A DNA stretch of 57,282 nucleotides. Origin: Deltaproteobacteria bacterium (GTDB taxonomy: Bacteria > Desulfobacterota > Desulfobulbia > Desulfobulbales > SURF-16). The position numbers were made by a program, and so were the translations under genes. Shown piece after piece: positions 814 to 21,120 of this stretch. The number at the start of each line of letters is the position of its first letter. Position 1 is the stretch's first letter. The stretch covers positions 1 to 57,282 of the forward strand of contig JACRCD010000018.1 in NCBI GenBank assembly GCA_016219175.1. Direction: 5' to 3'. The notes below the pieces were generated by a model. It worked only from the letters and a program-made list of their open reading frames with translations. It was not told the origin of the DNA and did not search any database.

Positions 814-1128
814 TCACGTGGCGCTGATGGCCACAATACTCCCTTCATGAATGACCGCGGTGATGCCCAGTTTTTCAAGTTCCTGGCGGGGGCGGTCGCC
901 GATGCGGGTGCAGTAAACCCTTTGGCAGCCGGCCAGCCCCTCCGCCACCGAATTAAAACGGGCCGCGTCAAACTGGTGGGATTGGTCCCCGGTTGACAGA
1001 CAGGCAACCCGCCGTTCGGCAATAGGGGTGAGACCCTGCGGTCCCGCCTCATAGATAAGAAAACGTTCCGCCTTGCCGAAGTGATCATTGACGTTGACGC
1101 CGTCGGTTGAAACAATTGCTATCCGCAT
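814..1128 (-). CDS. NifX-like dinitrogenase iron-molybdenum cofactor binding protein
   Basis: A 104-residue single-domain protein of the NifX/NafY/NifB-C-terminal family (dinitrogenase Fe-Mo cofactor biosynthesis domain). It opens with MRIAIVSTDGVNVNDHFG; the N-DHFG motif holds the conserved cofactor-region His. Members bind NifB-co or FeMo-co intermediates and hand them between NifB, NifEN and NifDK. It is the last gene of the nifE-N-B run and has a strong AAGGAGGAG site ahead of its ATG. Whether it works as NifX, NifY or a generic carrier cannot be told from sequence. Confidence 0.85.
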   Translation of the reverse strand: MRIAIVSTDGVNVNDHFGKAERFLIYEAGPQGLTPIAERRVACLSTGDQSHQFDAARFNSVAEGLAGCQRVYCTRIGDRPRQELEKLGITAVIHEGSIVAISAT

Positions 1129-1174: not shown

Positions 1175-2446
1175 TCAGCCGCAGCCGTTACCGCCGCCGG
1201 AGCAGGCCCCTTTGGAGGTGCACTTCTGCTGGCGGCCCTTGAGCTTGCTCAGGTCCTTGCCGCTGTAAACCGCTTCCAGCCCCATGTCGATGAAGCCGCT
1301 CATGGTCACCGGTTTGACCCCCATTTTGGCCAGGATCTCCTTGGGTGAATCGCCGAGATCATTGACCAGCACGGCGCGGCAGTCCCGCAGGGCCCGGGCC
1401 AGGTTGTGCCAGCGCTGCGGTCCGCCGCCGGGCTGGGAGGCCGGCCGCTCTTCCACCATGTTAAAGGTGCCGTCCTCTTTCTGCTCCCAGATCTGAAAAC
1501 GGGTGGCCTCGCCCAGATGCTGGTTGACCAGCACCCCTTCCATGGTGGCCACCGCCACATACGGCCTTTCCTGTACCGGCATTGACGGCAGAGAGGCGCA
1601 GGCTGAGAGGCAGCCGTGCATCTCCGCGCTTTTATCCTCGCCCAGCAAGCCCACGGCATCGGCCCGGCAGCGCGTGCAATGCCGCATCTGGGGCAGGTAT
1701 TTTTCCGCTTTTTTGCGCAGTGTCGCCATCTTCTGCTTGCTCGGTTCCGGGATATCGGCAAACGGGGTGTCCACATTGGGGAACATGGCCATGCAGTTAA
1801 AGAGATCGGCCCCCAGCTCCGCCATCTTGCTTGCCACCTCCTCGATATGATGATCGTTGATGCCCGGAATGGCAATGCAGTTTATTTTAACGGTGATGTC
1901 GTGCTCTTTCAGCTTGGTGATGGCGTGCAGCTGGCGGGCCAGGATCAGCTCCGCCGCCTGGATGCCGCGGTAGACCACGTTGCCGTCCCGCACCCAGCCG
2001 TAAACGTTTTTGGTCACCTCCGGATCAACCCCGTTCACCGTCACCGTGACATGGGAGACGTCCAGCTCCGCCAACGCCTCCACATGGGGGGCCAGGTTCA
2101 TGCCGTTGCTGGCCAGACAGAGAATCATGTGCGGATATTTTTCCCGGATGAGGCGCATGGTCTCCAGGGTCTCGTCGGCGTTGGCAAAGGGGTCGCCGGG
2201 GCCGGCGATGCCCGCCACCGTGATGCGCGGTTCCTTTTCCAACACCCGGTCCATGTAGGTGAGGGCCTGCCGCGGGGTGAGAATGGTGCTGGTGACGCCG
2301 GGCCGCGATTCGTTGACGCAGTCATATTTGCGGTTGCAGTAATTGCATTTGATGTTGCATTTCGGCGCAACCGGCAGGTGCACCCGGCCGAACTGGCCCT
2401 TGACCTTGGCGTTAAAGCAGGGATGATGACTGTAGTCTTTGTTCAT
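1175..2446 (-). CDS. nifB: NifB, radical SAM FeMo-cofactor biosynthesis protein
   Basis: A 423-residue NifB that makes NifB-co, the [8Fe-9S-C] core of FeMo-co, using S-adenosylmethionine. The radical-SAM motif CNIKCNYC gives cluster cysteines C30, C34 and C37. The GPGDP motif and an HCTRCRADAVGLLG block follow. A NifX-like domain fills the last third and the tail is Cys- and Gly-rich (CTSKGACSGGGNGCG). The N-terminal HPCFN block is typical of NifB. It is the third gene of the nifE-N-B-X run. The two-domain form with a fused NifX domain is the usual bacterial architecture. Confidence 0.96.
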   Translation of the reverse strand: MNKDYSHHPCFNAKVKGQFGRVHLPVAPKCNIKCNYCNRKYDCVNESRPGVTSTILTPRQALTYMDRVLEKEPRITVAGIAGPGDPFANADETLETMRLIREKYPHMILCLASNGMNLAPHVEALAELDVSHVTVTVNGVDPEVTKNVYGWVRDGNVVYRGIQAAELILARQLHAITKLKEHDITVKINCIAIPGINDHHIEEVASKMAELGADLFNCMAMFPNVDTPFADIPEPSKQKMATLRKKAEKYLPQMRHCTRCRADAVGLLGEDKSAEMHGCLSACASLPSMPVQERPYVAVATMEGVLVNQHLGEATRFQIWEQKEDGTFNMVEERPASQPGGGPQRWHNLARALRDCRAVLVNDLGDSPKEILAKMGVKPVTMSGFIDMGLEAVYSGKDLSKLKGRQQKCTSKGACSGGGNGCG

Positions 2447-2553: not shown

Positions 2554-3909
2554 TTACATATAGCTGTAGCCGACGGCTGAATCGCTCTGTTTCTTGTCGA
2601 TCAGGCTGTTGACCACCAGGTCAAAGAGCTGCTGCGCCCCCCGGTAGCCGAGATGCAGGATGCGCTGGCCGCCGATGCGGTCATGGATGGGAAAGCCCAC
2701 CCGGATGAGGGGGATGTTCAGCTTGCGGGCCAGGGGATAGCCCTTGCTGTGGCCCACCAGCAGATCAGGTCCTAAGCGCTCCGCCTCTTCGGCGATATCA
2801 AAGAAATCCATGCCCTCGTAGACCAGGGGCTGCTCGGTCAGCACGCCGTCGGTGGCTGCGGCGATGGCTGAGGCCATGGAGCCGCTGCGGCCGCCGCTGG
2901 CGCACAGGATGGGCATGACGCCGATTTCGGCGAGCATGGCCGTGAGTCCCACCACCAGATCCTCTTCCCCGTAAATGATGGCCTTTTTGCCGAACACATA
3001 TTTGTGGCCGTCCACATAGGCGTCTACCAGCCGGCCCCGTTCCGCCGCGTACTTGGCCGGGGCCGGACGATTGCCGAGGGTTTCGAGTGCGGCAAAGAAG
3101 CGGTCGGTCTCGCTGATGCCCATGGGCAGGCCGAGCCGGTGATTTTCCATGCCATATTTCTGAGCCAGCACGCTGCCGCCGGTTTTACTGCTGCCCAGGG
3201 TTCGGCTGAACTCGATGGTTGCCTTGGCGCCGCCCATCTCTTTGATGGCTTCAAGCGGGGTGCCGCCGCCGGGGATTTTTTCGTATTCGAGCAGGGCCGG
3301 GCCGTCGAGCGTTTCCGACAGATCGGGCAGCATGGTCGTCTTGATGCCGAAATCAGCCACGATCTCGGCCAGATAACGGTAGTCAGCCGACGAAACGAAA
3401 CCAGGCAGCAGGTTGACGGTGCCGTTTTCGCCAGACTTACCGGCCAGCTGCTCCACCACCGCGGCCACTGCGGCATGGAAACCTTCCATGTGGGTGCCGG
3501 AATAGCTCGGGGTGGAGACGTTCACCAGCAGCGGCCGAGAACTGGCGGCGGTTTCCCGGCCATATTCCTTCAGGATCATGGGCACGTCATCGCCGATGGT
3601 CTCGGTGAGGCAGGTGGTGGCGATGCCGATCAGTTGCGGATGGTATTTTTTGGTGACATTGGTCAGCCCGAGTTTGAGATTGGCCGCCCCGCCGTAGACT
3701 GCGTGTTTTTCGCTGAGCGAAGAGGAGGCGATGTCGATCGGCTCGTTAAAATGGCTGATGATGTAGCGCCGCATGTAGGTGGCGCAGCCCTGGGAGCCGT
3801 GCAGATAGGGGACGCTGCCTTCAATGCCGCGAAAGGCCAGGGCCGCGCCCAGGGGTTTGCATAGCTTGCAGGCATTGGTCGTTGATATGTAATTGGGCAT
3901 CTTTGTCAT
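2554..3909 (-). CDS. nifN: NifN, FeMo-cofactor scaffold beta subunit
   Basis: A 451-residue member of the nitrogenase component 1 family, the beta half of the NifEN scaffold on which NifB-co matures to FeMo-co. It resembles NifK near the N-terminus: CKLCKPLGAA gives C14 and C17, and HGSQGCATYMRRY gives C42. TTCLTETIGDD follows near residue 110. It lies directly after nifE, which separates it from the structural NifK encoded after nifD. The ATG at 3909 follows a GAGGA site. An upstream in-frame ATG at 3957 would read through the repeat block and is less likely. Confidence 0.92.
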   Translation of the reverse strand: MTKMPNYISTTNACKLCKPLGAALAFRGIEGSVPYLHGSQGCATYMRRYIISHFNEPIDIASSSLSEKHAVYGGAANLKLGLTNVTKKYHPQLIGIATTCLTETIGDDVPMILKEYGRETAASSRPLLVNVSTPSYSGTHMEGFHAAVAAVVEQLAGKSGENGTVNLLPGFVSSADYRYLAEIVADFGIKTTMLPDLSETLDGPALLEYEKIPGGGTPLEAIKEMGGAKATIEFSRTLGSSKTGGSVLAQKYGMENHRLGLPMGISETDRFFAALETLGNRPAPAKYAAERGRLVDAYVDGHKYVFGKKAIIYGEEDLVVGLTAMLAEIGVMPILCASGGRSGSMASAIAAATDGVLTEQPLVYEGMDFFDIAEEAERLGPDLLVGHSKGYPLARKLNIPLIRVGFPIHDRIGGQRILHLGYRGAQQLFDLVVNSLIDKKQSDSAVGYSYM

Positions 3910-3930
3910 GGGGTTTTCCTCTGTTGCAGA

Positions 3931-4008
3931 CGTTTCAATGTTCAAGCGATCAAACATTTGAGCACCGCAACGTTTGAACGCTGAAACGTTATAACGCTTG
4001 ATCGTTTC
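3931..4008. repeat. Degenerate 8-bp tandem repeats, nifE-nifN junction
   Basis: Nine 8-bp units in register (CGTTTCAA, TGTTCAAG, CGATCAAA, CATTTGAG and others) plus a partial unit. The block overlaps the 3' end of nifE, so the last residues of NifE (NDQAL) and its stop codon are written by repeat units. Confidence 0.85.
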
Positions 4009-5350
4009 TTTTTTCCTTGCGCGGCACGAATTTCCACACCGGGCTCATCACCGAGGAATAGACTTCCCGGGCGAAGTTGAGCATGCCGGTAAAGCCGGCC
4101 AGGGCCTCCTTGCGTTCATGGTTGTGGTCGCAGAAGCCCACCCCCAGCTTGTAGGCGATGGGCCGTTCCTTGACCCCGCCGACAAACACATCCACCTCTT
4201 TTTCCTTGAGAAAGGAGGTCAGCTCCAGGGGATTGGAGTCATCGACGATGATGGTGCCCGGATCGGTGATCTCGGCCAGCTCCTCATAATCTTCCTTCGT
4301 GCCGGTCTGGGAACCGACCATCACCACGTCCATGCCGATGAGGCGGAAGGCCTTGACCAGGGAAAAGGCCTTGAATGAGCCGCCCACGTAAATGGCCGCC
4401 TTTTTGCCGGTCAGCGCCTTCTTGTATTTCTGCAGTTCCGGCTGGATCTTGCGCACCTCTTCCTGGATCAGCTCGCTGGTGCGGGCCATCATCTCCGGGT
4501 CTTTGAAGAACCGGGCCACATCGTACAGGGCCTCGGACATGTCCTCGATGCCGAAATAGGAGACGCGGATGGAGGGGGTACCGTATTTCTCCTCCATCAT
4601 GTTGGCCAGGTCCATGGTGGCGCCGGAGCACTGCACGACATTCAAGGCCGCGCCGTGGGCCCGGCGGATGTCGTCGATGCGGCCGTCGCCGGTGATGTTG
4701 GCCACCACCTCGACCCCCATGCGCCGGAAATATTCGCGCACCATCCAGATCTCGCCGGCCAGGTTGAAGTCACCGAGGATATTGATGCTGTATTTGCTGA
4801 TGCTGCTGGTATCGCCGGTGCCGATCAGGCGGAACATGGCATTGCAGGCCGCCTTGTAGCCGGAGCGTTTGTTGCCCTTGAACCCTTCGGACTGCACGGG
4901 AATGACCGGGATGCCTTTCTGCTCGGTCACCTTGCGGCAGACCGCCTCCAGATCGTCGCCGATGATGCCGACGATGCAGGTGGAATAGACAAAGGCCGCC
5001 TTGGGGCTGTGCCGGTCGATGAGCTCATTAAGGGCGCTTTCGAGTTTTTTCTCGCCGCCGAAGATGACGTCCATTTCCTGCAGGTCGGTGGAGAAGCTCA
5101 GGCGATGCAGCTCAGGTCCCGAGGAGAGCGCGCCGCGGATATCCCAGGTATAGACCGCGCAGCCGATGGGGCCATGCACCAGATGCAGGGCATCGGCAAT
5201 GGGATAGAGCACCACCCGGGAGCCGCAGAAGACGCAGGCCCGCTGGCTCACCGCCCCGGCCAGACTGTCCTTGTTGCAGGTAATCTCAAAGGGCGTTTCC
5301 CCCTTGCGGTAGATCTGGTTTTCTCTCTCTTTTAAGGCAATGGCTTCCAT
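3989..5350 (-). CDS. nifE: NifE, FeMo-cofactor scaffold alpha subunit
   Basis: A 453-residue NifD-like subunit of the NifEN scaffold complex. Visible family marks are a Cys near the start (ITCNKDSLAG, C25), RACVFCGSR (C39, C42), HGPIGCAVYTWD (C64), and YSTCIVGIIGDDLEAV. The later Cys-bearing block reads NVVQCSGATMDLANMM. The start at 5350 is chosen because homology begins there; in-frame sequence back to 5512 runs through the promoter region. It is the first gene of nifE-N-B-X and has its own sigma-54 promoter (5425-5439). Its C-terminus ends inside an 8-bp repeat block. Confidence 0.94.
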   Translation of the reverse strand: MEAIALKERENQIYRKGETPFEITCNKDSLAGAVSQRACVFCGSRVVLYPIADALHLVHGPIGCAVYTWDIRGALSSGPELHRLSFSTDLQEMDVIFGGEKKLESALNELIDRHSPKAAFVYSTCIVGIIGDDLEAVCRKVTEQKGIPVIPVQSEGFKGNKRSGYKAACNAMFRLIGTGDTSSISKYSINILGDFNLAGEIWMVREYFRRMGVEVVANITGDGRIDDIRRAHGAALNVVQCSGATMDLANMMEEKYGTPSIRVSYFGIEDMSEALYDVARFFKDPEMMARTSELIQEEVRKIQPELQKYKKALTGKKAAIYVGGSFKAFSLVKAFRLIGMDVVMVGSQTGTKEDYEELAEITDPGTIIVDDSNPLELTSFLKEKEVDVFVGGVKERPIAYKLGVGFCDHNHERKEALAGFTGMLNFAREVYSSVMSPVWKFVPRKEKRNDQAL

Positions 5351-5424
5351 AATGGTCCCATGTGAAAATGGATGAATGCGGTCATGTCGCATTGGCTGCT
5401 GTGTATTGTTTGAATACATGCCAT

Positions 5425-5439
5425 AGCAACCGCTGTGCC
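5425..5439 (-). promoter_or_regulatory. Sigma-54 -24/-12 promoter of nifE-N-B-X
   Basis: On the minus strand this reads TGGCAC-N5-TTGC, a full match to the sigma-54 consensus. Transcription should begin near 5413, giving a leader of roughly 60 nt before the nifE ATG. It shows that nifE starts its own transcription unit. Confidence 0.85.
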
Positions 5440-5537
5440 ACCAGGAATTGTTGCATGAAAAACGTGTGATTACGGTATGTTGTGCGGCGATGACGGATTG
5501 TTTGGCATGCATGCGGCTTGACGCAGACCTGTACGTT

Positions 5538-5580: not shown

Positions 5581-5912
5581 GGGTGTGTGGGAAAATAACA
5601 ATTCCGCTGATGTCAGGGTGATTTTACCGGGGTATACCATAACGAAGGATATGTGCTTGATTGTTGGCTGGATTCGCGGTATTACCTGAAAGAATAAGGT
5701 GGATAAAGGCGAACTTTTTGTTGAAATAAAATTTTATGCGGTGGCCATGGGGAGATTGACGATCAGGGCCAGCCGACGCAAAAGATTGTTGAGAATCGCA
5801 GCGGCGAGGCCCATTATTGCTAACGCGGATAGCCGGGGCCGATTTCGAGGCAAACGTGGAATCGGGATTCAACAGGATTTTCAGAAAAACGCTGAACGGG
5901 GAGGGCGAATCA
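5581..5912. other. Gap between the nifE promoter and the broken DinD-like gene
   Basis: No supportable gene is seen. Open frames here lack ribosome sites and recognisable motifs. This is probably the left junction of the plus-strand insert. Confidence 0.4.
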
Positions 5913-6407
5913 ATGAGTAGTAATATCAAGCTGTTTGAATCAAGGCAAATCCGCTCAGCGTGGAACGAGGCGGACCAGCGCTGGTATTTTTCCGTGATTG
6001 ATGTGGTTGCGGTCCTGACTGACAGCCCGAATCCGCGGGACTATTGGTATCGTATTAAAAAACGGGAAAAAATCAGCGGGCTTGAACTGTCGACATTCTG
6101 TCGACAGTTCAAGCTCGAAGCCCCGGACGGCAAAATACGGGAAACCGATTGTTCAGACGCCGAAGGGTTGCTTCGCATCATTCAGTCCATTCCCTCGCCC
6201 AAGGCTGAGCCCTTCAAGCTCTGGCTGGCCCGAGTCGGCTACGAACGGCTGGAGGAGATCGAAAAGCCGGAGCTGGCCGCCAAACGTATGCGGGAGCTGT
6301 ACAAGGCCAAGGGGTACAGCGACGAATGGATCGAAAAGCGGGTGCGCGGCATCGCCATCGGATACGGAATAAAAGGCTGGGTCCTTGGTATGTGCCAGAT
6401 ACACTAA
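5913..6407 (+). pseudogene. Truncated DinD/BRO-N-like protein
   Basis: The 164 codons begin with a BRO-N-type domain. Blocks include WYFSVIDVVAVLTDS, RDYWYRIKKRE, and FCRQFKLEAPDGK (about residues 55-75). The family-typical IQSIPSPKAEPFKLWLARVG and a helical region ending in RVRGIAI follow. Intact relatives, named DinD-like or BRO-N antirepressor-like, continue for roughly 100 more residues from this point. Here the frame switches to an unrelated GYGIKGWVLGMCQIH and stops. That indicates a deletion or frameshift and a non-functional remnant. A GGGGAGGG precedes the ATG at 5913. Such genes are common in phage-derived and defence regions. Confidence 0.75.
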
Positions 6408-6559
6408 TTGCGGCAATCGGCACCTGAAGGGCTTAAACAACTTGTTTGGCGCTGAATAAACAGGATATAGGGCATTGATCGTCTTAGGGGATGAGGTGAT
6501 GAATGTTTCCAAAGTATAAAAAAAACATAACTTGTATAATGTAATGTGGTGATTTGTCT

Positions 6560-7609
6560 ATGATTACAAAATTAGCGCTACGTAATTTCAAAAGTGTAGG
6601 TGAACAGGACTACGACTTTTTACAGTTTGATCTTCTGATTGGGAGGAATAACAGCGGCAAAAGCACAGTACTGCAGGCGTTGGCAATCTGGCAGTACTGT
6701 GTTGATGAGTTTCATAGATTGAAACGTAGCGGTACAAAAGGTGTACAGGTGGTCCTGCCAAACTTTACTGCTTTGCCGGTACCTGAATTTAACCTGCTTT
6801 GGAAAGATAGAATTGATCGGCATTGGCCCATGGTCAACGGCAAAAAAAAGCAGGAATACATTCTGATTGGCATTCGGGTGGAATGGCTGATGGAGACTGG
6901 AGCGACAGATTCATTTGGCGTAGAGTTGCGCTACCACTCGCCGCAATCAATTTACGCAATTCCCAGCGATGGTTGGGCAAAATTCCGTGAATGCGAAAAG
7001 CAGGGGGTTCTGCCCAAAATTGCCTACGTACCACCTTTTTCTGGACTGGAGCCGACCGAAAAAAAACTAGATGATTCTCCGATTCGCCAGCAGGTAGGGA
7101 AGGGTCAACCCGGAAGCGTACTTCGCAATTTACTGTTGCGGGTTTGTCCTCCACCCGAAAGAGAATCGGATGGGCGCATTGTCAAGCGGCCATCACCTAA
7201 TGACTGGCAGGAACTGGCTGCTATAACCGAACGTTGGTTCTCTGTAAAAATTCGGGAGCCAAAATATGATTCTGTCGGGGATGTCTATATCACCGTTGAA
7301 TATCGACAAAATGGCAAAAACTATGACATCATTTCCGGGGGAAGCGGTTTCCACCAGACTCTGACTCTGTTGGCCTTTCTGTATGGTTATCAACCCACCA
7401 CCATACTCCTTGATGAACCAGATGCGCATCTGCATGTTAACTTGCAACGCGAGATTCTCGATTTTTTCAAAAGAAAATCTTTTGAGAGAAACACTCAGTT
7501 TCTGATTGCTACACATGCAGAGGAGTTTGCGCGAGGTGTTGATGCCAGTCAAATAGTCTCGCTGCTGAGTCAAGTGCCAAGGCGCATTCAGTCAACACCG
7601 GAAGTATAG
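6560..7609 (+). CDS. ABC-type/AAA15-like ATPase of a two-gene defence-like pair
   Basis: A 349-residue SMC/RecF-like ATPase. It starts with the typical ITKLALRNFKSV strand and Walker A GRNNSGKS (28-35). The signature-like SGGSGFHQ is near 259-266. Walker B is ILLDEPD (282-288), with the H-loop ATH at 318-319. It lacks a fused Toprim domain; instead the next gene supplies one 6 bases downstream. This split layout resembles PARIS (AriA-AriB) and separated OLD systems more than one-piece OLD or GajA. The ATG at 6560 is preferred over a TTG two codons earlier. GC content is clearly lower than in the flanking nif genes, which points to transfer. The function is inferred from architecture only. Confidence 0.8.
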   Translation: MITKLALRNFKSVGEQDYDFLQFDLLIGRNNSGKSTVLQALAIWQYCVDEFHRLKRSGTKGVQVVLPNFTALPVPEFNLLWKDRIDRHWPMVNGKKKQEYILIGIRVEWLMETGATDSFGVELRYHSPQSIYAIPSDGWAKFRECEKQGVLPKIAYVPPFSGLEPTEKKLDDSPIRQQVGKGQPGSVLRNLLLRVCPPPERESDGRIVKRPSPNDWQELAAITERWFSVKIREPKYDSVGDVYITVEYRQNGKNYDIISGGSGFHQTLTLLAFLYGYQPTTILLDEPDAHLHVNLQREILDFFKRKSFERNTQFLIATHAEEFARGVDASQIVSLLSQVPRRIQSTPEV

Positions 7610-7615
7610 AGAGCA

Positions 7616-8305
7616 ATGTCGGAAGTTACTAACGAAGAGATAGCCAGGCTGATGGCATCGCCCTACATTCTCTATGTGGAAGGGGAAAGCGATGAGCGTA
7701 TTCTTCGTGCTTGGGCAGCTCAATGCGGTGCGCAGGTAGCGATTGATAAAGTCTGTTTCAAGGCGATGGGGGGTGGCGGTAAAGAGAACATGAAAAACAG
7801 AGCGGATGAACATTACGCCGCATTGCAGCAGATCATCCCTGAGGTTTCACGATTAATGCTCTTCGACTACGACAATAGCGCCAATGCATTTCACCCCCCT
7901 ACTGATAACCTTACATTAACCGAGTGGAAGCGAAAAAATATTGAAAACTACTTATTGGTTCCTGATGCCTGGAAGCGAGCAGCTCTCCAGCTTATGAAAT
8001 GCAAAGAAGACAATCTTTTTGCGTATCCAGTGTTACACACCATCAATAATTTTTTTTCCGATCAGAATTTGACGTTGCCCGCCGGGAAAACGTGGCGAAA
8101 CGTAACGGCAAATATATTCATGATGGTCGATGGGAAGCGAATTCTGTTCGAAGAAGACAACTCACTTTTCCACCAACTTCGAACTGGCTCACCACCTTTG
8201 CAGCTCATTCGTGATGAGGTTGCTATGAGTATGAGCGCCGATGAAATTCATGAGGATGTTCATCATTTTATCGGTAAACTTGTGCAGATGACTGGTGATA
8301 AATGA
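7616..8305 (+). CDS. Toprim-domain protein, DUF4435/AriB-like partner of the ATPase
   Basis: A 229-residue protein. YILYVEGESDE places a Toprim glutamate at E22, and LMLFDYDNS gives the acidic pair D84 and D86. A KNIENYLL block at 107-114 is typical of Toprim proteins of the DUF4435/OLD type. In PARIS the Toprim partner AriB is the toxic nuclease held by the AriA ATPase; by analogy this would be the effector. At 229 residues it is shorter than AriB as I recall it, so it may be a distinct subtype. It follows the ATPase gene by 6 bases and clearly forms an operon with it. Its AT-rich codon use matches its partner, not the nif genes. Confidence 0.75.
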   Translation: MSEVTNEEIARLMASPYILYVEGESDERILRAWAAQCGAQVAIDKVCFKAMGGGGKENMKNRADEHYAALQQIIPEVSRLMLFDYDNSANAFHPPTDNLTLTEWKRKNIENYLLVPDAWKRAALQLMKCKEDNLFAYPVLHTINNFFSDQNLTLPAGKTWRNVTANIFMMVDGKRILFEEDNSLFHQLRTGSPPLQLIRDEVAMSMSADEIHEDVHHFIGKLVQMTGDK

Positions 8306-8425: not shown

Positions 8426-8890
8426 TTAGCAAACCACCTCCAGCAACTCCATCGCCAGACCGAGCATGGCCGGGATTTCCGCCATGGTGGGCGGTGTTCT
8501 GTGGTAGGTGTCGAGGTCGCAGATCTCCTGGTAGGCATCGAGGGCCAGCAGCCGGTCCTTGATGTCGCCCAGCCGGCCGGGAAAATGCTCCTCCATGGCT
8601 TCCGCCAGATCGCGCATGGTGTGATTGTATGGCAGGTTGCCGCTCTGCATGAGGGCGCCCATCACCAGTTTTTCAATGGCCATGGCAATCACGTTGTAAA
8701 GGATCTCGGCGGTGAAGGCTTGGCGTTGGTTGGCAAAGGCCCGGCGGGCCGTGGTCAGGTACTGTTCGCCCTCGCGCAGGTACTCCTCCCAGCCCGTGAT
8801 GGCAAAGGATTTGATATCGGCAAAACCGACCAAGCCGGACGGAACAGCAGCGGAAGACATAGGACGACTTTTTTGCGGCGTCATGGTCAT
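8426..8890 (-). CDS. HEPN-like small helical protein at the end of the nifHDK run
   Basis: A 154-residue, mostly helical protein. The stretch from about 30 to 100 (REGEQYLTTARRAF, then AMAIEKLVMGALMQSG, then NHTMRDLAEAM) has the A-IEK-L and H-L pattern of HEPN domains. No R-x4-6-H ribonuclease motif is visible, so it is probably a non-catalytic HEPN or similar helical bundle. An AAGGAGAACA site precedes the ATG at 8890. It is the last gene of the nifH-headed run, 24 bases after the GNAT gene. That position suggests a role linked to nitrogen fixation, but none can be assigned. Confidence 0.6.
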   Translation of the reverse strand: MTMTPQKSRPMSSAAVPSGLVGFADIKSFAITGWEEYLREGEQYLTTARRAFANQRQAFTAEILYNVIAMAIEKLVMGALMQSGNLPYNHTMRDLAEAMEEHFPGRLGDIKDRLLALDAYQEICDLDTYHRTPPTMAEIPAMLGLAMELLEVVC

Positions 8891-8914: not shown

Positions 8915-9376
8915 TCAAGGCGACAGCCGTTTGCGCAGGCAGATCAGTTCCGTGGTCTGCCAGCCGAGTTTTTTATAAAAATCCAGGGCCGGGCCGTTAT
9001 TGCGGTCCGCCAGCAGCTGGAGGCGCGACACCCCTTTTTCCCGGGCCCAGGCGCCGAGATTCTCCATCAGAAGCCTGCCGATGCCCCGGCCGTGCCAGTC
9101 CTTACGGACCACAACATCCTCCACCAGCAGGGCGGGGCCGCCTTCCGCCGTGGACACGGTAAGCTGGCCGGTGCACATGCCGATGACCTGGCCATCCGCC
9201 TCGGCCGCCAGGATGCAGGCCCAGGGGTTGTCCAGCATCATCCGCAGGCCCCGGCGCTGCAGCATTTCGTCAAAAATAAAGTCCTCTTCAATGGTAAAGA
9301 GGATTTTCAGCAGGGCCGTGAGGCTGTTAATATCTCCGGGCCGGGCCGGGCGGATGATCACCATGGGCGCAGTCAT
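8915..9376 (-). CDS. GNAT family N-acetyltransferase
   Basis: A 153-residue GNAT fold protein. The acetyl-CoA binding motif A reads VVVRKDWHGRGIGRLLM (R/Q-x-x-G-x-G), and NGPALDFYKKLGW is the usual motif B. The substrate is unknown. The ATG at 9376 starts 7 bases after the ferredoxin stop and has no strong ribosome site, so translational coupling is likely. Its place inside the nifH-headed run suggests a nif-related modification, but this is inference. Confidence 0.85.
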   Translation of the reverse strand: MTAPMVIIRPARPGDINSLTALLKILFTIEEDFIFDEMLQRRGLRMMLDNPWACILAAEADGQVIGMCTGQLTVSTAEGGPALLVEDVVVRKDWHGRGIGRLLMENLGAWAREKGVSRLQLLADRNNGPALDFYKKLGWQTTELICLRKRLSP

Positions 9377-9383
9377 GGGTGTG

Positions 9384-9689
9384 TTACGCGATGAGATAGT
9401 CTGCCGGCGGTTCTCCGTCTTCGATGCCGTCCAGGATGGCGTCGATGGCCGCGGTGCTGTCCACCCCCTTGAACCACCAGTTCTCCGGATGAACAATCAT
9501 GATGGGGCCTGATTCGCACTGCTTGAGGCAGGTGGTGGCCGTGACCAGGCAGTCCAGGCCCCGGTCCAGGATCTCTTCGTCAATGTACTGCAGAAAGCCG
9601 TCGGTCTGCTTATGGCAGAGGCCCTTGGGGTCGCCGCCGGCCGCCCGGAAGCTCTGGCACACAAGTATCTGTCGTTTGGGAATTGCCAT
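9384..9689 (-). CDS. Thioredoxin-like [2Fe-2S] ferredoxin
   Basis: A 101-residue ferredoxin of the thioredoxin-fold [2Fe-2S] type. It begins MAIPKRQILVCQSFRAAG, and the likely ligand cysteines are C11, the Cys in GLCHK, and the pair in TTCLKQCESGP. This family, including the clostridial-type 2Fe-2S ferredoxin, often accompanies nif genes and may donate electrons to nitrogenase or cofactor synthesis. An AAAAAGGAGATATACC leader precedes the ATG. Confidence 0.85.
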   Translation of the reverse strand: MAIPKRQILVCQSFRAAGGDPKGLCHKQTDGFLQYIDEEILDRGLDCLVTATTCLKQCESGPIMIVHPENWWFKGVDSTAAIDAILDGIEDGEPPADYLIA

Positions 9690-9846: not shown

Positions 9847-11025
9847 CTATTTGCGGCATTGTTTGCCTTTTTTGCCCCCGCCGTACAGCACGTCCACCGT
9901 GCCTTCCACATTGCCGTCGGTGACGAGCACGGTGATGCCGCGGCGGCTCAGAATTGATCTCGGGTTCTCGCCGGCCCCGGAGGTGAGCAGGGCAAAGCAG
10001 TCGGTGAATGAATCCGCCAGTTTCTCCCACCTGGCTCCGCCGCCGCCCGCTTCAGGCAAGGCGCGGGTGGTGAGCAGGCAGGGGAGCCCGTCTTCCCGTG
10101 GGCCGTAAATCAGGGCCCGGGCTGCCTGGCCGAGATGCAGATCGATATCCATGCCGTTGGTGCTGACTACCGCCACGTTGGGCCGCTCTTTGCTCGGTTT
10201 GGGCAACGCGGCCGGCTGGCCGGCCGCGCCGGTCCGCGGGCCGGGAACGCCGGTCTGGCCGCAGCATGCGGGCTGTCCGGCAATTTCTGTTTTGATATAC
10301 AGGGAGGCAAGAGCGATCAGTTCGCGCAGCCGAGCCCTGTCAGGGGCGGGCGGCTGGTCCGGCTCGCCGGCCCGGGGCGTAAACGGGGCAAGCAGCAGCG
10401 TCTCCGCGCCAAGCTCTGCCAAGCGCGCACCGATTTTTCCTATCAGTTGGTCGTTGATGCCCGGATAAACCGCCGTTTTCGCCGTGACCGTGATGCCGGC
10501 CTGACGTAAGGCCGGGATGGCCTTGGCCTGTTCTTCCAGCAGCAGATCCGCGGCCTTGGGCAGCGGGACTGTTTTAGTGCCGGGCCGTATCCAGGCATAA
10601 AGCTTTTGCACCACTTCCGAATGCACCGCGTCCACCAGCAGGGTGACGCGGCTCACGCCATGTTCGGCCAGCGCCTCGGCATGCTGCGCTCCGTTAATGC
10701 CAAGCGTGGTAAGGCCCAGGGTAATTCCTGCATATTCCCGGCGCATCAGTTGCAGGGTCTCCAGGGTGGGACCGATGGCGGCCAGGGGGTCGCCCGGACC
10801 GTTAAGGTGCGCCTCGTCAACCTTTATTCCCCGGTTGAGTGTCTCCTTAAGCCAGGCCAGGGCCTCGGCCGGCAGCATGGCCCGCGGGGTCTGGTCTGCC
10901 GGAGCAAAGCGCAGCCGGGCATGGGCGTGGGCCGCCACCGGCAGATCAAGACGGATTCCCGCCTCCTGGGGGGCGGCGGCGCCGAAACTGGGCCGGATAA
11001 GAGTAAATGCGGATGCGGCATTCAT
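9847..11025 (-). CDS. NifB paralogue without radical-SAM cysteines, with NifX-like C-terminal domain
   Basis: A 392-residue protein that aligns with NifB along its length. Shared blocks include the LPVA strand, NGPGDPLAAIGPTLETL (NifB GPGDPFANADETLET), HAEALAEHGVSRVT and VYPGINDQLI. The C-terminal NifX-like domain has VAVVSTNGMDIDLHLGQA. The segment that carries CNIKCNYC in NifB reads AAHAHARLRFAP here, with no cysteine, and the HCTRCRADA block is also gone. It therefore cannot bind the SAM [4Fe-4S] cluster in the usual way. A NifB-co or FeMo-co carrier or chaperone role is plausible. It follows nifK in the nifH-headed run. The ATG at 11025 follows GGGAGGCGCAAGG. The reading frame is intact, which argues against simple decay. 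Confidence 0.85.
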   Translation of the reverse strand: MNAASAFTLIRPSFGAAAPQEAGIRLDLPVAAHAHARLRFAPADQTPRAMLPAEALAWLKETLNRGIKVDEAHLNGPGDPLAAIGPTLETLQLMRREYAGITLGLTTLGINGAQHAEALAEHGVSRVTLLVDAVHSEVVQKLYAWIRPGTKTVPLPKAADLLLEEQAKAIPALRQAGITVTAKTAVYPGINDQLIGKIGARLAELGAETLLLAPFTPRAGEPDQPPAPDRARLRELIALASLYIKTEIAGQPACCGQTGVPGPRTGAAGQPAALPKPSKERPNVAVVSTNGMDIDLHLGQAARALIYGPREDGLPCLLTTRALPEAGGGGARWEKLADSFTDCFALLTSGAGENPRSILSRRGITVLVTDGNVEGTVDVLYGGGKKGKQCRK

Positions 11026-11225: not shown

Positions 11226-12599
11226 CTACATAACCAGCTCGAAACTCTGCTCCGGCTCGTCCCGGTCCTTGCGATCCATCAGCACGGCCAGGATTTTTTC
11301 CAAGAGCCTTAAGCCGCCCTTGTAACCCACCGTGGGGAAGTACTGGTGGCCCTGACGGTCCAGGATGGGGAATCCCCAGCGCACAAAGGGCAGGTCCTCG
11401 TCCCGGGCGATGTACTTGCAGTACGTGTTGCCGATCAGGAGATCCACCGGATCGTTCTTGATCCACTGGTGCAGCAGGAACATGTCGCCGGCCGCCTTGA
11501 CGTTGACCGTATAGGGCAGATCCTTGGTGATTTCCCTGATGCGTCTCTCAAAGGCCTTGCCCGGCGTGCCGGTGACGATATGCATGGGCATCATGTCCAG
11601 GGTGACCAGGAATTCGGTCATGGCAATCAACTGATCCGGATCGCCCACCAGGGCCACCTTCTTGTGGTAGAGGTACTGGTGCATGTCGGAGATCATGTCC
11701 ACCAGCTGGCCCCGTTCCATGGACAGCTCGTCGGGCACGGTCACCCCGCCGATGGTGCGCAGGGCATCGATAAAGCGGTCGGTAGCCTTGAGGCCGAAGG
11801 GCATGTCCAGCACCTTGCAGGGCACCTTGTTCTTGCTGTCCAGCTCACGGGCCGCGTCAGCGGAACACCATTCGCCCAGGGCCAGGGTGCCGATGGAATC
11901 ACCGGCGGATTTCAGCTCCGCCACGGTGGTGCCGCCCTCGGGAAACATCTTGTACTCGCCGGACAACGGGCCGTTGAGTACGCCGGAAGTATCCGGGAAG
12001 AGAATGGATTTAACGCCGATCATTTTGGTGACCCGCTTGATCTCTTCCATGTCGGACGGTTCGACCCAGCCCGGGATGATGTTCACCTTGCCGTTTTTCT
12101 TGCCGGTGGTCTCGGCGAGTCCGGCCATGGACTTGACCATGGTGGAAAAGCCGGTGACGTGCGAGCCCACATAGCTCGGGGTCGAGGCGCTGATCATGTA
12201 CTTGCCCTCGGGGATTTTGCCCTCGGCCAGCGCTTTTTTGCGGATCTGTTTCAGATCGTCGCCGATGGTCTCGGACAGGCAGGTGGTATGGACGGCAATG
12301 ATCTCCGGCTCATAGACGGAAAAGATGTTGTCAATGGCCTGCAGCATGTTGGCCTGACCGCCGAACACGGAGGCCCCTTCGGTAAACGAGCTGGTGGCCG
12401 CCGAGACCGGTTCCTTGTAATGCCGGGTCAAGGTGCTGCGGTGGTATGCGCAGCACCCCTGGGAGCCATGGCTGTGCGGCAGGCAGCCGTGGATGCCGAG
12501 TGCCGCATACATGGCGCCAATGGGCTGGCAGGTCTTGGCCGGATTGATCATCAAGGCGCTGCGCTCGGTAATTTCTTTGGGTGTATGTCGTAATAGCAT
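11226..12599 (-). CDS. nifK: Nitrogenase MoFe protein beta subunit NifK
   Basis: A 457-residue MoFe protein beta subunit. P-cluster cysteines are visible at AKTCQPIG (C24), HGSQGCCAYHRST (C49) and HTTCLSETIGDD. The short N-terminus compared with Azotobacter NifK is normal for Group III enzymes. It pairs with NifD encoded 79 bases upstream; the spacer contains a strong hairpin made of 8-bp repeats. A GAGG site lies ahead of the ATG at 12599. The C-terminus (EPEQSFELVM) is intact. Confidence 0.97.
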   Translation of the reverse strand: MLLRHTPKEITERSALMINPAKTCQPIGAMYAALGIHGCLPHSHGSQGCCAYHRSTLTRHYKEPVSAATSSFTEGASVFGGQANMLQAIDNIFSVYEPEIIAVHTTCLSETIGDDLKQIRKKALAEGKIPEGKYMISASTPSYVGSHVTGFSTMVKSMAGLAETTGKKNGKVNIIPGWVEPSDMEEIKRVTKMIGVKSILFPDTSGVLNGPLSGEYKMFPEGGTTVAELKSAGDSIGTLALGEWCSADAARELDSKNKVPCKVLDMPFGLKATDRFIDALRTIGGVTVPDELSMERGQLVDMISDMHQYLYHKKVALVGDPDQLIAMTEFLVTLDMMPMHIVTGTPGKAFERRIREITKDLPYTVNVKAAGDMFLLHQWIKNDPVDLLIGNTYCKYIARDEDLPFVRWGFPILDRQGHQYFPTVGYKGGLRLLEKILAVLMDRKDRDEPEQSFELVM

Positions 12600-12678: not shown

Positions 12679-14325
12679 CTACTCCCAGCCGTAAGTGGCT
12701 GATAATTGTGGATTTGTCTGCCAGGGGGCCTTCATGTAGCTCCACACCTTGCTGTTCACCAGCCGGTCGATCTCCTTGTAGAAGTTGACCGCGCCCTTGA
12801 AGCCGGCGTAAGGACCGCCCGAGTCGTAGCTGTGCAGCTGCTTCATGGGAATGCCCAGCTTCTGGATGGAAAATTTTTCCTTGATGCCGGCGCAGAAGAT
12901 ATCCGGTTTCATCAGTTCCACCAGCTTCTCGGCCTCGTACTGGTTGAGGTCGTCGATGATGAGGGTCCCTTTCTCCATATCAGGGATCAATCCTTCGTAT
13001 TCCTTGAATTTGTATCCCGCCTTTTCCAGGGCCTTCATCTCTTCCGGGCTCTTGCGCGGCTTAAAGCGGGTCGCATCGGCTTCCACCTCGATCTCTTCGA
13101 TGTTGCGGCTGTCGGCATCCACCGTAAGGGTAGGAAGAACCTGGCGGCCTTCGTAATCATCGCGGTGGGCGAACTCGTAACCGGCGGAGATGGTTTTCAT
13201 GCCCATCTCGGTAAACAGTTCCTGGTAATGGTGGGCCCGGGAGCCGCCGACAAACAGCATGGCGGTCTTGCCCTGAGTGCGGGGCAGGATGTCATTTTTC
13301 GCCGCCTCCACCGCCGGCATCTCCTCATTGATCACCGCCTCCACCCGGTCGATGAGCTCCTGATCGCCGAAGTACTCAGCGATCTTGCGCAGCGATTTGG
13401 CCGTGCCCTTGGCGCTGATGAAATTCACCTTGATCCAGGGGATGCCGTATTTCGTCTCCAGCATGTCGGCCACGTAGTTGATGGAGCGATGGCACATGAC
13501 GGCGTTCAGATCGGCGGTGTGGGCCGAGGCGAACTGGTCATAGGTCGAGTTGCCGGAAAAGGTGGCGATGTTGGTGATGCCGCATTTCTTGAAAATACGG
13601 TCGATCTCAAAACCGTCGCCGCCGATGTTGTATTCGCCGAGCAGGTTGATTTTGTATTTGCCCGGTTTCACCTCATCGTTTTCCCCGACAATATGACGGA
13701 AGACCTGGTTGTTGGCAATGTGATGCCCGGCTGACTGGCTGACGCCCTTGTATCCTTCGCAGGAAAAGGCGTAGACGTTGCAGTCGCCGAATTTCTCCTT
13801 CATCCGCCTGGCCACGGTGTGGATGTCGTCGCCGATCAGTCCCACCGGGCAGGTGGCAAAGATGGCGATGGATTTCGGGTGGAACAGGTCATAGGCTTCC
13901 TGGATGGCCTTTTCCAGTTTTTTTTCGCCGCCGAAGATGATGTCCGAATCCTGCATGTCCGTGGAAAAACAGTAGGACATGTAGTTTTCGCCGTCAGCTC
14001 CGGCATCGGTCTGGTTGCGGCGGGTCAGCCAGGCGTAGAAGCTGCAGCCGATGGGGCCGTGCACCAGGTTGACGATGTCGCGGGTGGGGCCCATGATAAC
14101 ACCCTTGCAGCCGGCGTAGGTGCAGCCGCGCATGGTGATGATGCCGGGGGTGGTGCGCACGTTGGCGGAGATCTCCGGCGTCTCGTTTTCCTGGGCCTCA
14201 TTGATCATTATCTGTTTGGCGCGTTTGCGGGCGACCTTGGGCGGATACTTTGCCAGCAGCTTGGCCTTGACATCGGCCGGGTCCCACTGCACCAGTTTGT
14301 TCTTTTTTATTGCGGTTGTTGCCAT
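12679..14325 (-). CDS. nifD: Nitrogenase MoFe protein alpha subunit NifD (Group III type)
   Basis: A 548-residue MoFe protein alpha subunit. P-cluster cysteines lie in RGCTYAGCKG (C68), HGPIGCSFYAW (C94) and ATCPVGLIGDD. The FeMo-co ligands are the Cys in MCHRSINYV and the His in MKQLHSYDSGGPY. It is longer than Azotobacter NifD because of an insertion of about 50 residues near 395-450 (region rich in E, K and D, including FKPRKSPEEMKAL), as in clostridial and sulfate-reducer Group III enzymes. AAGGAG precedes the ATG at 14325, 16 bases after nifI2. Confidence 0.97.
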   Translation of the reverse strand: MATTAIKKNKLVQWDPADVKAKLLAKYPPKVARKRAKQIMINEAQENETPEISANVRTTPGIITMRGCTYAGCKGVIMGPTRDIVNLVHGPIGCSFYAWLTRRNQTDAGADGENYMSYCFSTDMQDSDIIFGGEKKLEKAIQEAYDLFHPKSIAIFATCPVGLIGDDIHTVARRMKEKFGDCNVYAFSCEGYKGVSQSAGHHIANNQVFRHIVGENDEVKPGKYKINLLGEYNIGGDGFEIDRIFKKCGITNIATFSGNSTYDQFASAHTADLNAVMCHRSINYVADMLETKYGIPWIKVNFISAKGTAKSLRKIAEYFGDQELIDRVEAVINEEMPAVEAAKNDILPRTQGKTAMLFVGGSRAHHYQELFTEMGMKTISAGYEFAHRDDYEGRQVLPTLTVDADSRNIEEIEVEADATRFKPRKSPEEMKALEKAGYKFKEYEGLIPDMEKGTLIIDDLNQYEAEKLVELMKPDIFCAGIKEKFSIQKLGIPMKQLHSYDSGGPYAGFKGAVNFYKEIDRLVNSKVWSYMKAPWQTNPQLSATYGWE

Positions 14326-14341
14326 TGTATTGCTCCTTATA

Positions 14342-14716
14342 TTAAACGATGGACTTAAGACCCATCTCGCCCGTCCGTACGCGGACGGCATCGGTCACCG
14401 GCAGGACAAAGATCTTGCCGTCCCCTGGCTTGCCGGTGCGGTTGGTCTCGATAATCGCCTGGACCACGTCATCGACCAGCTCGTCCTTAATGACGACCGT
14501 CACCATGCGCTTGGCATAGAGTTTTCCCTTTTCGCCAAGCAGGGAGGCGGCCTCCTCATAGCCTTGCTGGGCGCCATTCAGCACCACGGGATTGACAAAC
14601 CCCCGGCCCCGGCCATGGGCCTCATGGGCGAAGAAGGCGTCGATACCGATATCGGTCAAGGCCTGCTTGGTCTGATTCATCATGTTTATTCGCACAATGG
14701 CGATCACCTCTTTCAT
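14342..14716 (-). CDS. nifI2: NifI2, PII-like nitrogenase switch-off regulator
   Basis: A 124-residue PII-family protein (MKEVIAIVRINMMNQTKQAL; C-terminal GDGKIFVLPVTDAVRVRTGE) with an extended T-loop region rich in Gly. In methanogens NifI1 and NifI2 form a complex that binds NifDK and stops N2 fixation when ammonium rises; 2-oxoglutarate relieves this. Its place between nifH and nifD is diagnostic. It overlaps nifI1 by 4 bases (ATGA), implying coupled translation. No draT or draG is in the window, so NifI is the visible switch-off route. Confidence 0.94.
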   Translation of the reverse strand: MKEVIAIVRINMMNQTKQALTDIGIDAFFAHEAHGRGRGFVNPVVLNGAQQGYEEAASLLGEKGKLYAKRMVTVVIKDELVDDVVQAIIETNRTGKPGDGKIFVLPVTDAVRVRTGEMGLKSIV

Positions 14717-15066
14717 GCCTTGGCCTCCTCGGGCGCCCCGTTCTCCCTGACCCCGGAGCTGATGGTGTAGGATTCCTCCACCTCGGTGACAAAGATCTTG
14801 CCGTCGCCGAATGCGCCCTTGACCCCGGAGCGGGCCGTATCCATGATGGTCTGGATGACGAAGTCCTTTTCCTCGGGCTTGACCACGCTCATCAGCATCA
14901 TTTTGGGAATTTCATCATAGGTGACCTCGCCGATCTTGATGCCGCGCTGCTTGCCGCGGCCGGCCACCGAATATTTGGTCACGGCCGGAAAGCCTGCGTC
15001 CATGAGGGCGGCAAGGATTTTGTCTGCTTTTTCCGGCCTGACGATAGCTCTAATCATAGTTAACAT
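14713..15066 (-). CDS. nifI1: NifI1, PII-like nitrogenase switch-off regulator
   Basis: A 117-residue PII-family protein (MIRAIVRPEKADKILAALMDAG; VAGRGKQRGIKIGEV; GAFGDGKIFVTEVEESYTI). It is the partner of NifI2 and lies directly after nifH. It lacks the conserved T-loop tyrosine context of GlnB/GlnK (RGAEY), as expected for NifI proteins. The ATG at 15066 has GGAG about 11 bases upstream; a second ATG three codons on is possible. Confidence 0.94.
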   Translation of the reverse strand: MLTMIRAIVRPEKADKILAALMDAGFPAVTKYSVAGRGKQRGIKIGEVTYDEIPKMMLMSVVKPEEKDFVIQTIMDTARSGVKGAFGDGKIFVTEVEESYTISSGVRENGAPEEAKA

Positions 15067-15198: not shown

Positions 15199-16104
<906 letters not shown>

Positions 16105-16196: not shown

Positions 16197-16211
16197 GCAA
16201 GAGATGTGCCA
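16197..16211 (-). promoter_or_regulatory. Sigma-54 -24/-12 promoter of nifH
   Basis: On the minus strand this reads TGGCAC-N5-TTGC, a full consensus match. The predicted start is near 16186, giving a leader of about 160 nt before nifH. Confidence 0.85.
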
Positions 16212-19812: not shown

Positions 19813-21120
19813 TTAATACTCCTCAATCTGCCGGCGGAACCAGCGCAGCTGTTTATCGCGGATCTTTTTCATATCCAGATGATAGATGGACTGCGGGAAA
19901 AGCAGTTCCGCCACCCCGGTGTCAAAGATGCGTTTGACCTCATACTCATCATGGGAAACATCCCGCTGATAGATGTAGTTGAGATAGCTCTGGTAGGTGT
20001 GGACGATGAACTCCACCCGCATGCCGCCAAGCCGGGCAAAAAATTTGAACATGGCGGTATTGGGGGAGCTGCCGGTGTTTTTGCCCATCCTTTTTGCGCC
20101 GGAGAGCGAATCGCAGATGTCCTCCAGCGCCATGAATGAGTTGGCCGCAATGGCGCTGCTGGTCAGGTGTTTCTGAAATATCTTGATGTCCTGAATCGAT
20201 TCCAGCACGCCCATGAGGCCTAATTCGTCATCCACCGCCACGGCCGGATTTTCCTCACCCTTGCGCAACAGTTTCAGGACCTTGGCCTCGGGCGGTTTTT
20301 TACGGATTGACACGTAGATGGGGATTTCCCTGCCGTTTGCCGTAAACCTTCGCCGTTTGAGCAGGGTGAGTTTCTGGCCCGGTTCCAGGACGGTCTGTTC
20401 AGCCTCGCCGCGGCTGACAATCCGCAGCTGTTCGCAGGTGAAATTGTTCTTTTCGTGGTTGCTGAGGAGATAAACGATTTCCAGTTCGCCGATCTTGGCC
20501 TTTTTGCTCCAGACGTGATCATTAAGGAATTCGAGGAACTGGGTGAATTTGCTCTCGATGCCTGTTTCTCGTTCCCTCTGATCAATGGACCCGGCCAGGT
20601 TCATGAGGATCAATTTGCGTTTGGCTTCAAAACGGGCCTTCTGGTGGTAGCGGTCGTCGAACACGATGAGCAGCAGTTCCGCGGGGCGGCTCAGGGCATC
20701 GATTTCGTTGGTCATCTCGATGTGCGAGCTGTAATTGGCTAAAATTTTACTGCGCAGATAGCGGATGACTCCGTCCGCCGTTCGTGAGTAGTTGTTGACC
20801 CGGGAGATGATCTCGCGTTCCGTGCCTTCGATGCCGAACATGTTGCCAAGCAGCATATAAGCGCGATGGTCGATTTCCTGGCGGCGGGTCCGGTCATGAA
20901 GCAGGGCCTGGATGGCCGCAAAAGAGCGGACATTGAGAAATTCGAATATCTGGTTGCGGATAATGCGGAATTTGGTGGCCATCTCGCCACGGCCCAGCAG
21001 GGTTGCCATGGCGCGGGCCTGCGGGCGAAATGTATTGCCGGCCTGGAGATTGGCATGGGTGGCAAAAGGCCCTTCCTGGTTCAGGAGGAGAAACATGTTG
21101 TTTTGGCTTGAATGGATCAT
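19813..21120 (-). CDS. Hypothetical protein, 435 residues
   Basis: I do not recognise this protein. It is soluble, with mixed charge. The middle is probably helical (ESKFTQFLEFLNDHVWSKK), followed by a strand-rich part around the RRRFTANGREIPIYVSIRKK segment. A conserved-looking C-terminal stretch reads GGMRVEFIVHTYQSYLNY. There is no signal peptide, and no Cys clusters or ATP-binding motif. Length and coding pattern are consistent with a real gene, and it is tightly packed with the small membrane gene and nifV. The start is uncertain because no clear ribosome site precedes 21120. Confidence 0.75.
   Translation of the reverse strand: MIHSSQNNMFLLLNQEGPFATHANLQAGNTFRPQARAMATLLGRGEMATKFRIIRNQIFEFLNVRSFAAIQALLHDRTRRQEIDHRAYMLLGNMFGIEGTEREIISRVNNYSRTADGVIRYLRSKILANYSSHIEMTNEIDALSRPAELLLIVFDDRYHQKARFEAKRKLILMNLAGSIDQRERETGIESKFTQFLEFLNDHVWSKKAKIGELEIVYLLSNHEKNNFTCEQLRIVSRGEAEQTVLEPGQKLTLLKRRRFTANGREIPIYVSIRKKPPEAKVLKLLRKGEENPAVAVDDELGLMGVLESIQDIKIFQKHLTSSAIAANSFMALEDICDSLSGAKRMGKNTGSSPNTAMFKFFARLGGMRVEFIVHTYQSYLNYIYQRDVSHDEYEVKRIFDTGVAELLFPQSIYHLDMKKIRDKQLRWFRRQIEEY

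Follow-up and report, generated by a model that had tools for sequence, protein, structure and literature searches.

A NifB paralogue without radical-SAM cluster motifs, encoded behind nifK in Desulfobulbales, is a candidate two-domain cofactor chaperone of nitrogenase

The window, by which we mean the whole 57,282-nucleotide stretch of DNA analysed here, carries its nif genes on the minus strand (Table 1). In the order of that strand, nifH is followed by two PII-type genes, nifD, nifK, the gene for a protein that we call P0001, and a gene for a 2Fe-2S ferredoxin; nifE, nifN, the gene for a full NifB (P0002), and the gene for a small NifX-like protein (P0003) come further on. P0001 comprises 392 residues, and its frame is open throughout from an ATG at 11025 to a stop at 9847. 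The frame also stays open 5' of the chosen ATG, upstream of which a GGAGG is seen by eye. A first-pass annotation, made from the letters alone, had placed an intact frame behind nifK in a nifH-headed run, with a complete NifB encoded 7 kb away. The open frame and the gene order agree with this description, the distance measures 7.4 kb, and P0002 scores over the NCBIfam nifB cut-off.

Table 1. Nif genes, regulatory sites, and predicted domains of P0001 in the window
Feature	Position	Strand	Basis
NifB paralogue without cluster motifs, P0001, 392 aa	9847..11025	-	ORF, BLASTP, alignment
Predicted dead radical-SAM (NifB) barrel of P0001, ~residues 20-250	10276..10968	-	AlphaFold2 model; VIA-align residues 24-248
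Variable linker of P0001, ~residues 251-279	10189..10275	-	pLDDT <50 at 253-271; mean column conservation 0.37
NifX-type (Nitro_FeMo-Co) domain of P0001, ~residues 280-392, with H297 and C343	9850..10188	-	PF02579; Foldseek 9ian_F; 93/93
nifK	11226..12599	-	TIGR01286 over cut-off
nifD (longest frame)	12679..14391	-	TIGR01282 over cut-off
Two PII-type regulators, nifI1 and nifI2	14342..15066	-	Sequence; same pair is P-II behind nifH in N. vulgaris
nifH	15199..16023	-	By sequence
Exact sigma-54 consensus upstream of nifH	16197..16211	-	Consensus scan
Thioredoxin-like 2Fe-2S ferredoxin, next downstream of P0001	9384..9689	-	NF041612/NF041613 below cut-off; N. vulgaris orthologues annotated (2Fe-2S) ferredoxin
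Exact sigma-54 consensus before nifE	5426-5440	-	Consensus scan
nifE (longest frame; start probably further in)	3989..5512	-	By sequence
nifN	2554..3957	-	Sequence and place
Full NifB, all motifs (P0002)	1175..2446	-	TIGR01290 381.8 bits, over cut-off
Small single-domain NifX-like protein P0003, after nifB	814..1128	-	PF02579 56.2 bits

The exact sigma-54 consensus TGGCAC-N5-TTGC occurs in the window only at the two sites of Table 1, before nifH and nifE, and the consensus scan found no exact site between nifK and the P0001 gene, which is thus probably read from the nifH promoter. With one mismatch the same scan gave six sites, equal to chance; a glnB-type gene is preceded by a sigma-54-like site (24807-24821, minus strand) that has one mismatch and is at chance level by number. 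A terminator scan found 11 candidates against 9.9 expected, which is near chance, and a sigma-70 promoter scan found 8 against 3.6 expected. The gap between nifK and the P0001 gene (11026-11225, minus strand) holds, just after nifK, a perfect hairpin (GGCAGGGG, an AATTT loop region, CCCCTGCC) with no T run behind it, and the fold z of the gap is only -1.61.

Other features accompany these genes. Between the ferredoxin gene and nifE, the cluster is interrupted by a mobile or defence-like island (5817-8305, plus strand) encoding a Bro-N protein, an AAA_15/AAA_21 ATPase, and then a 229-aa partner without a Pfam match. A GNAT acetyltransferase gene directly follows the ferredoxin gene (8918-9496, minus strand). 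Near the ferredoxin there is also a 154-aa protein with no Pfam match (8429-8890, minus strand), which an ORF behind the ferredoxin of another locus (L166, 3174-3728) resembles by eye. A 435-aa ORF with no Pfam match lies near nifV (19816-21120, minus strand).

P0001 aligns with P0002 over 400 columns at 32% identity (BLASTP, E 1e-61). The first-pass annotation had matched P0001 to NifB at the GPGDP and PGIND blocks and in a C-terminal NifX-like domain, and had found the cysteines of CNIKCNYC and HCTRCRADA replaced or missing. In our alignment both blocks are retained, CNIKCNYC stands opposite a Cys-free AHAHARLRF, and HCTRCRADA has no CxxC equivalent. The Pfam models Nitro_FeMo-Co (PF02579; 35.8 bits, cut-off 26.3) and Radical_SAM (30.3 bits, cut-off 29.5) both match, and the score against NCBIfam nifB (TIGR01290) is 100.8 bits, under the cut-off of 343.65. 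Of 80 aligned relatives, all 80 match NCBIfam nifB (best member E 1.2e-59) and 76 match PF02579 at E 1e-3. Genome-wide, P0001 and P0002 are the only full-length matches, and two more consist of the NifX-type domain alone. The original observation on P0001 was right and, indeed, understated.

The loss of motifs extends across a family. CxxxCxxC occurs in none of 116 paralogue-class ORFs (duplicates and fragments counted) versus 46 of 47 NifB ORFs, the exception being a broken copy (L134). After removal of six fragments and duplicates, 93 distinct paralogues were aligned with 44 NifB. Since all 93 of these relatives lack CxxxCxxC, P0001 does not represent a lone loss. At the three SAM-cluster columns, Cys is absent from 78 of the 93 and occurs once, never more often, in the other 15, and 92-93 of the 93 have gaps in the columns of NifB Y41-P49, where C43 and the ExRP motif lie. 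As plain patterns anywhere in the sequence, HPC, ExRP, TxTxN, and Cx2CRxDA are found in 10, 19, 1, and 0 of the 93 paralogues and in 43, 44, 37, and 44 of the 44 NifB, respectively; Cx2CR is found in 0 of the 93, and GPG is kept in 89. The K1 ligands of Methanosarcina acetivorans NifB are given as Cys30, Cys63, and Cys129 in the available text of PMC6053413. We take C10, C43, and C110 of the window NifB as their counterparts by motif positions, and a Cys is present there in 57, 0, and 12 of the 93 paralogues, respectively. His43 of NifB is a further K1 ligand (PMC7145814, available text); H23 of the window NifB is taken for it from the context of the alignment, and its column has His in 18 of the 93. 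Because the SAM-cluster cysteines, the loop with ExRP and a K1 Cys, and Cx2CR are lost, these proteins are predicted not to synthesize NifB-co in the way of NifB. The earlier suggestion that P0001 is catalytically dead as a NifB is thereby supported at the level of motifs, with no SAM-cluster ligand set, an incomplete K1 set, and no Cx2CR.

Phylogenetic analysis separates the two classes. After thinning, 67 of the 93 paralogues were placed together with 41 NifB in an unrooted tree (quick search, SH-aLRT only), in which one branch with a support of 100 parts the paralogues from NifB. The branch leading to the paralogues is long, and the NifB of Pseudomonadota and Chloroflexota fall on the NifB side. 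As far as sequences can tell, the paralogue is an old derivative, of single origin, of two-domain NifB.

Selection on the paralogue was estimated with the Nei-Gojobori method (own script) from 19 independent pairs, that is, pairs without a common sequence. The median dN/dS is 0.19 (range 0.11-0.28), far from the value near 1 that relaxed selection would give. By part, the medians are 0.20 for the barrel, 0.12 for the NifX domain, and 0.37 for the linker, where two values from short samples are at or above 1. These estimates indicate that both domains are held by purifying selection. From overlapping pairs, the values for nifK, nifD, and nifH are 0.05, 0.06, and 0.03, relative to which the paralogue is less constrained; in the same comparison, we obtained 0.21 for nifB (3 usable), 0.17 for nifE (10), and 0.16 for nifN (4). 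The faster change than in nifK and nifD, together with a frameshift-split copy in one assembly of the same genus, is what a decaying duplicate without function would predict. However, there are 93 distinct full-length sequences with pairwise dN/dS of 0.11-0.28, and the gene is kept in 95 of 106 genomes, so that such decay has next to no probability: it is already refuted for the family, and the window copy is open and ordinary. A pseudogene or recent lone loss was likewise ruled out by the 0 of 116 ORFs with CxxxCxxC, the supported clade, the dN/dS of 0.19, and the retention in 95 of 106 genomes.

The last figure was obtained by sampling the window's order: of 145 genomes (completeness at least 90%), 106 had a NifB-family match at E 1e-50 or better, 95 of them with the paralogue and 11 with NifB only. 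The paralogue was called at 299 bits or more, the next lower match being 268, and one genome (G421) is borderline at 299.5 bits. Of the 95 carriers, 92 show one more match, presumed to be full NifB, which is absent in G338, G383, and G386. Across the phylum, the paralogue is present in 10 of 296 sampled genomes (at least 366 bits), all 10 with a second, NifB-level match. An eleventh carrier (G310) shows a two-piece match in one frame, directly behind nifK. Assignments in both samples are score-based, and motifs were read in fetched sequences only; outside the phylum, sampling was by plasmid and genome-contig scans only. Among 38 genomes comprising the window's own and 37 relatives, 23 have an orthologue, in two cases seen in two pieces (by frameshift in G002, in one open frame in G017), four have NifB only (G005, G024, G029, G030), and 11 have neither. 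A scan of named genome contigs gave 145 relatives, of which the best 80 were kept. Judged by their record titles, these best 80 are mainly from Desulfobulbaceae and Desulfocapsaceae and also include Desulfovibrionaceae (e.g., Pseudodesulfovibrio pelocollis), Desulfamplus, one Desulfarculaceae bacterium, and the cable bacteria Electrothrix and Electronema.

The position of the gene is similarly consistent. Among these best 80 of 145 loci, nifK ends at most 400 nt upstream on the same strand in 75 (median gap 94 nt), a ferredoxin gene starts at most 400 nt downstream in 76 (median gap 54.5 nt), and both flank the paralogue in 71. The exceptions are contig ends (L067, L039), two loci without nifK in the stretch (L080, L093), one in which it lies 5 kb away (L085), one rearranged locus (L095), two with the ferredoxin 2.1 and 0.5 kb away (L098 and L104), and a frameshifted locus of the window's genus, in which the split paralogue (L036, 4763-6050) reflects an assembly error or a recent break. 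In Azotobacter and Klebsiella, nifK has the NifY gene behind it, and the AnfO gene lies near its K gene.

Genomes without the paralogue are informative in turn. Three N. vulgaris plasmids and, in the window's order, at least G024, G254, and G029 have nifK and the ferredoxin without it; in the plasmids its slot is simply closed, with nifK followed by the ferredoxin. In 10 paralogue-free genomes whose nifK was inspected, nifK is followed by the ferredoxin in six and by nifE in three, with neither in the stretch for one. The absence in G005, of the same genus as the window, is uninformative because its sole nifK-type match is NifN-level and nifK itself was not found. Given the plasmids and the genomes with nifK followed directly by the ferredoxin, the paralogue is dispensable for a nif system and is an accessory protein. 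Paralogue-free genomes carry a small conserved ORF near the ferredoxin (L164, 3201-3482; L165, 3132-3485), which may be Nif11-like. The N. vulgaris RCH1 plasmid (L114) has no nifE listed between the ferredoxin and nifN, in a PLSDB table that omits pseudogenes, and in the place of NifB it has a short NifB/NifX-family gene only, unlike the two other N. vulgaris plasmids.

These gene neighbourhoods bear on two further explanations. The ferredoxin found so regularly downstream could point to a different function, for instance the delivery of electrons or the protection of NifDK, but the ferredoxin also follows nifK where the paralogue is absent, so that the link may be mere neighbourhood, and we give this idea a very slim chance. 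Alternatively, the paralogue could be a regulatory pseudoenzyme whose barrel pairs with NifB, takes its cluster donors, or senses SAM via GPGD, thereby tuning cofactor supply. The retention of GPG and the co-occurrence with a presumed full NifB in nearly all carriers would suit this idea, yet the gene travels with nifK and not with nifB. Moreover, NifB-like SAM binding is unlikely because the SAM-holding cluster is gone and TxTxN and ExRP, as plain patterns, are largely lost; we regard regulation as distinctly improbable.

The predicted structure also groups P0001 with NifB. The AlphaFold2 model (80 sequences) has a mean pLDDT of 88.1 and a pTM of 0.70, with low pLDDT at residues 1-14, 253-271, and the last residues, and is predicted to consist of a NifB barrel, a disordered linker, and a NifX-type domain. 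VIA-align matches the model to NifB 7jma (Z 29.3, rmsd 1.6, 213 residues, 24% identity), and the next non-NifB row has Z 19.3. The VIA-align list spans residues 19-274 only, and the tail fold is based on sequence and on one Foldseek row, which relates it to NifX 9ian_F (E 1.6e-6, TM-score 0.60 by target, rmsd 3.4). Sequence profiles match NifB structures at E 7e-44 and the NafY core 1p90 at E 0.0028. A control NifB model (A3) was poor, with a pLDDT of 69. Pure misannotation of a NifX is ruled out for this family, residues 20-250 being a predicted NifB barrel by both the structural score and the profile match.

Conservation is distributed differently in the two classes: the mean is 0.74 in the tail versus 0.54 in the barrel of the paralogues, the opposite of NifB, with 0.65 in the tail versus 0.70 in the barrel. 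Residues present in 93 of 93 paralogues include G78, G109, W145, R147, and Q166 of the barrel and H297, L298, G299, A301, R321, R332, W333, D342, and C343 of the tail. In the former radical-SAM loop, now A-x-x-R-x-R-F, 87 of the 93 have R37 and 83 have R39; at the old SAM-cluster site, these arginines might accommodate an anionic cluster or a protein surface. Two other residues were considered and set aside. C316, invariant in 21 sequences and thus a candidate clade-specific new ligand, is Cys in only 77 of the 93. D295 was not used as a carrier mark as P0003 has Asn at that position; its column has Asn in 44 of 44 NifB and Asp in NifX and NafY too.

H297 occupies the same column as H310 in the tail of the window NifB. 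H310 in turn is paired with residue 35 of chain 9ian_E of NifX in a weak alignment (E 0.32), and H297 falls on the His of the HFG motif in the NafY core 1p90 in an alignment that is weak (E 1.2) and in register. According to the available text of PMC13128457, NifX H35 binds NifB-co, and a His of this type is found in NafY, VnfX, and the tail of NifB itself, with NifY and NafX lacking it. The retention of H297 thus fits a carrier role, although, because this His and a NifX domain are already found in the NifB parent, H297 alone may be inheritance. The carrier role could also be filled already, because P0003, which matches NifX 9ian_E (E 5.7e-4) and the NafY core 1p90, and the tail of NifB are encoded in the same genome.

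The first-pass annotation, which is supported in part, read P0001 as a protein that carries, stores, or delivers NifB-co or FeMo-co, analogous to NifX/NafY. In one form of this idea, the paralogue would be a buffer or shuttle of NifB-co before NifEN, passing the cluster from NifB to NifEN, or a cluster store. A NifB-type body with H297, the His by which NifX binds the same cluster (PMC13128457, available text), would be suited to this task; however, the gene is encoded with nifDK rather than nifENB, and a small NifX-like gene already stands behind nifB in the window. We therefore consider a NifB-co shuttle unlikely. The location behind nifK would also suit a placeholder that stabilizes apo-NifDK without any cofactor, in the manner of NifY or NafX (PMC13128457, available text), and Klebsiella NifY sits on apodinitrogenase according to a title cited in PMC11938142. 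Yet the cofactor His that NifY and NafX are described as lacking is kept in every paralogue, and we find a cofactor-free placeholder very improbable.

The hypothesis that we favor, with a probability of roughly one half, is that P0001 is a tethered two-domain cofactor chaperone of NifDK, similar to NafY and AnfO, with a dead NifB barrel placed first. It follows from the combination of the plan of AnfO, here headed by a NifB barrel, with the location behind nifK; we infer that this location, the linker, and the two-domain build favor a helper of apo-NifDK over storage of NifB-co. In such a mechanism, the NifX-type domain would hold FeMo-co (or NifB-co) via H297, and the dead barrel would serve as a docking and shielding module that recognizes apo-NifDK (or hands over from NifEN). 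The disordered linker may give the cofactor domain the freedom to swing over to the site of insertion, and co-transcription behind nifK would tie the dose of the paralogue to that of NifDK. The binding, the partner, and the direction of transfer are all conjectural parts of this mechanism. More tentatively, and on balance with slightly less confidence, a radical-SAM maturase may have turned into a catalytically dead chaperone whose barrel attaches to apo-NifDK and encloses the completed cofactor, the SAM cluster having given way to basic residues, and nearly all Mo nitrogenase systems of Desulfobulbales may use it. In broader terms, the second, machinery-less NifB beside the nitrogenase genes of many sulfur-metabolizing bacteria is probably a carrier or helper and not an enzyme.

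In open-licence PubMed Central, we found no publication dealing with what this family does. A survey of NifB excluded 28% of 390 putative sequences for missing motifs, and most of those excluded lacked Cx3Cx2C and were taken for misannotated NifX (PMC5715403, available text). In the available text of PMC11505543, nifB_1 and nifB_2 are listed without comment in one Pseudodesulfovibrio cluster, and the extra NifB of Paenibacillus keep Cx3Cx2C in the motif listing of PMC8287671. Judging from the motifs, nifB counts taken from the annotation of sulfate reducers and cable bacteria would include a protein unable to be NifB in function. For anaerobic diazotrophs that lack NafY, the paralogue bears on the question of which protein inserts FeMo-co into NifDK, and helper proteins are important when nitrogen fixation is to be transferred to other hosts. 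A NifB chassis without the chemistry offers, furthermore, a naturally occurring way to tell which parts of NifB serve only for holding the cluster.

Like two-domain NifB, the paralogue has both domains, the barrel, the GPGD and PG-ND blocks, and the tail His and Cys; unlike NifB, it lacks CxxxCxxC, the ExRP loop, Cx2CR, and TxTxN, scores under the NCBIfam cut-off, and is encoded at another locus. With NifX and VnfX, the carriers of NifB-co, it shares the NifX fold and the His at the position of NifX H35. NifX is, however, a single domain with a C-terminal NifE-binding helix (PMC13128457, available text), whereas the paralogue has a 250-residue barrel in front and a GGGKKGK-like tail. NifY and NafX share the NifX-like domain but are without the cofactor His (PMC13128457, available text). 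NafY and AnfO are two-domain helpers with a linker, and AnfO, likened to NafY, consists of an apo-protein-binding domain, a linker, and a cofactor-binding NifX-like domain (PMC11938142, available text). The paralogue likewise has an N-terminal domain, a linker, and a C-terminal NifX-like domain, a likeness to AnfO in architecture only, since AnfO serves Fe nitrogenase, excludes wrong cofactors, and has an N-terminal domain of another kind (PMC11938142, available text). NafY, a FeMo-co chaperone and the gamma subunit of apodinitrogenase, resembles the paralogue in its NifX-type domain with the cofactor His, in having a second domain, and in the proposed target, apo-NifDK; the first domain of NafY is a sterile alpha motif, whereas that of the paralogue, for which binding is proposed only, is a NifB barrel.
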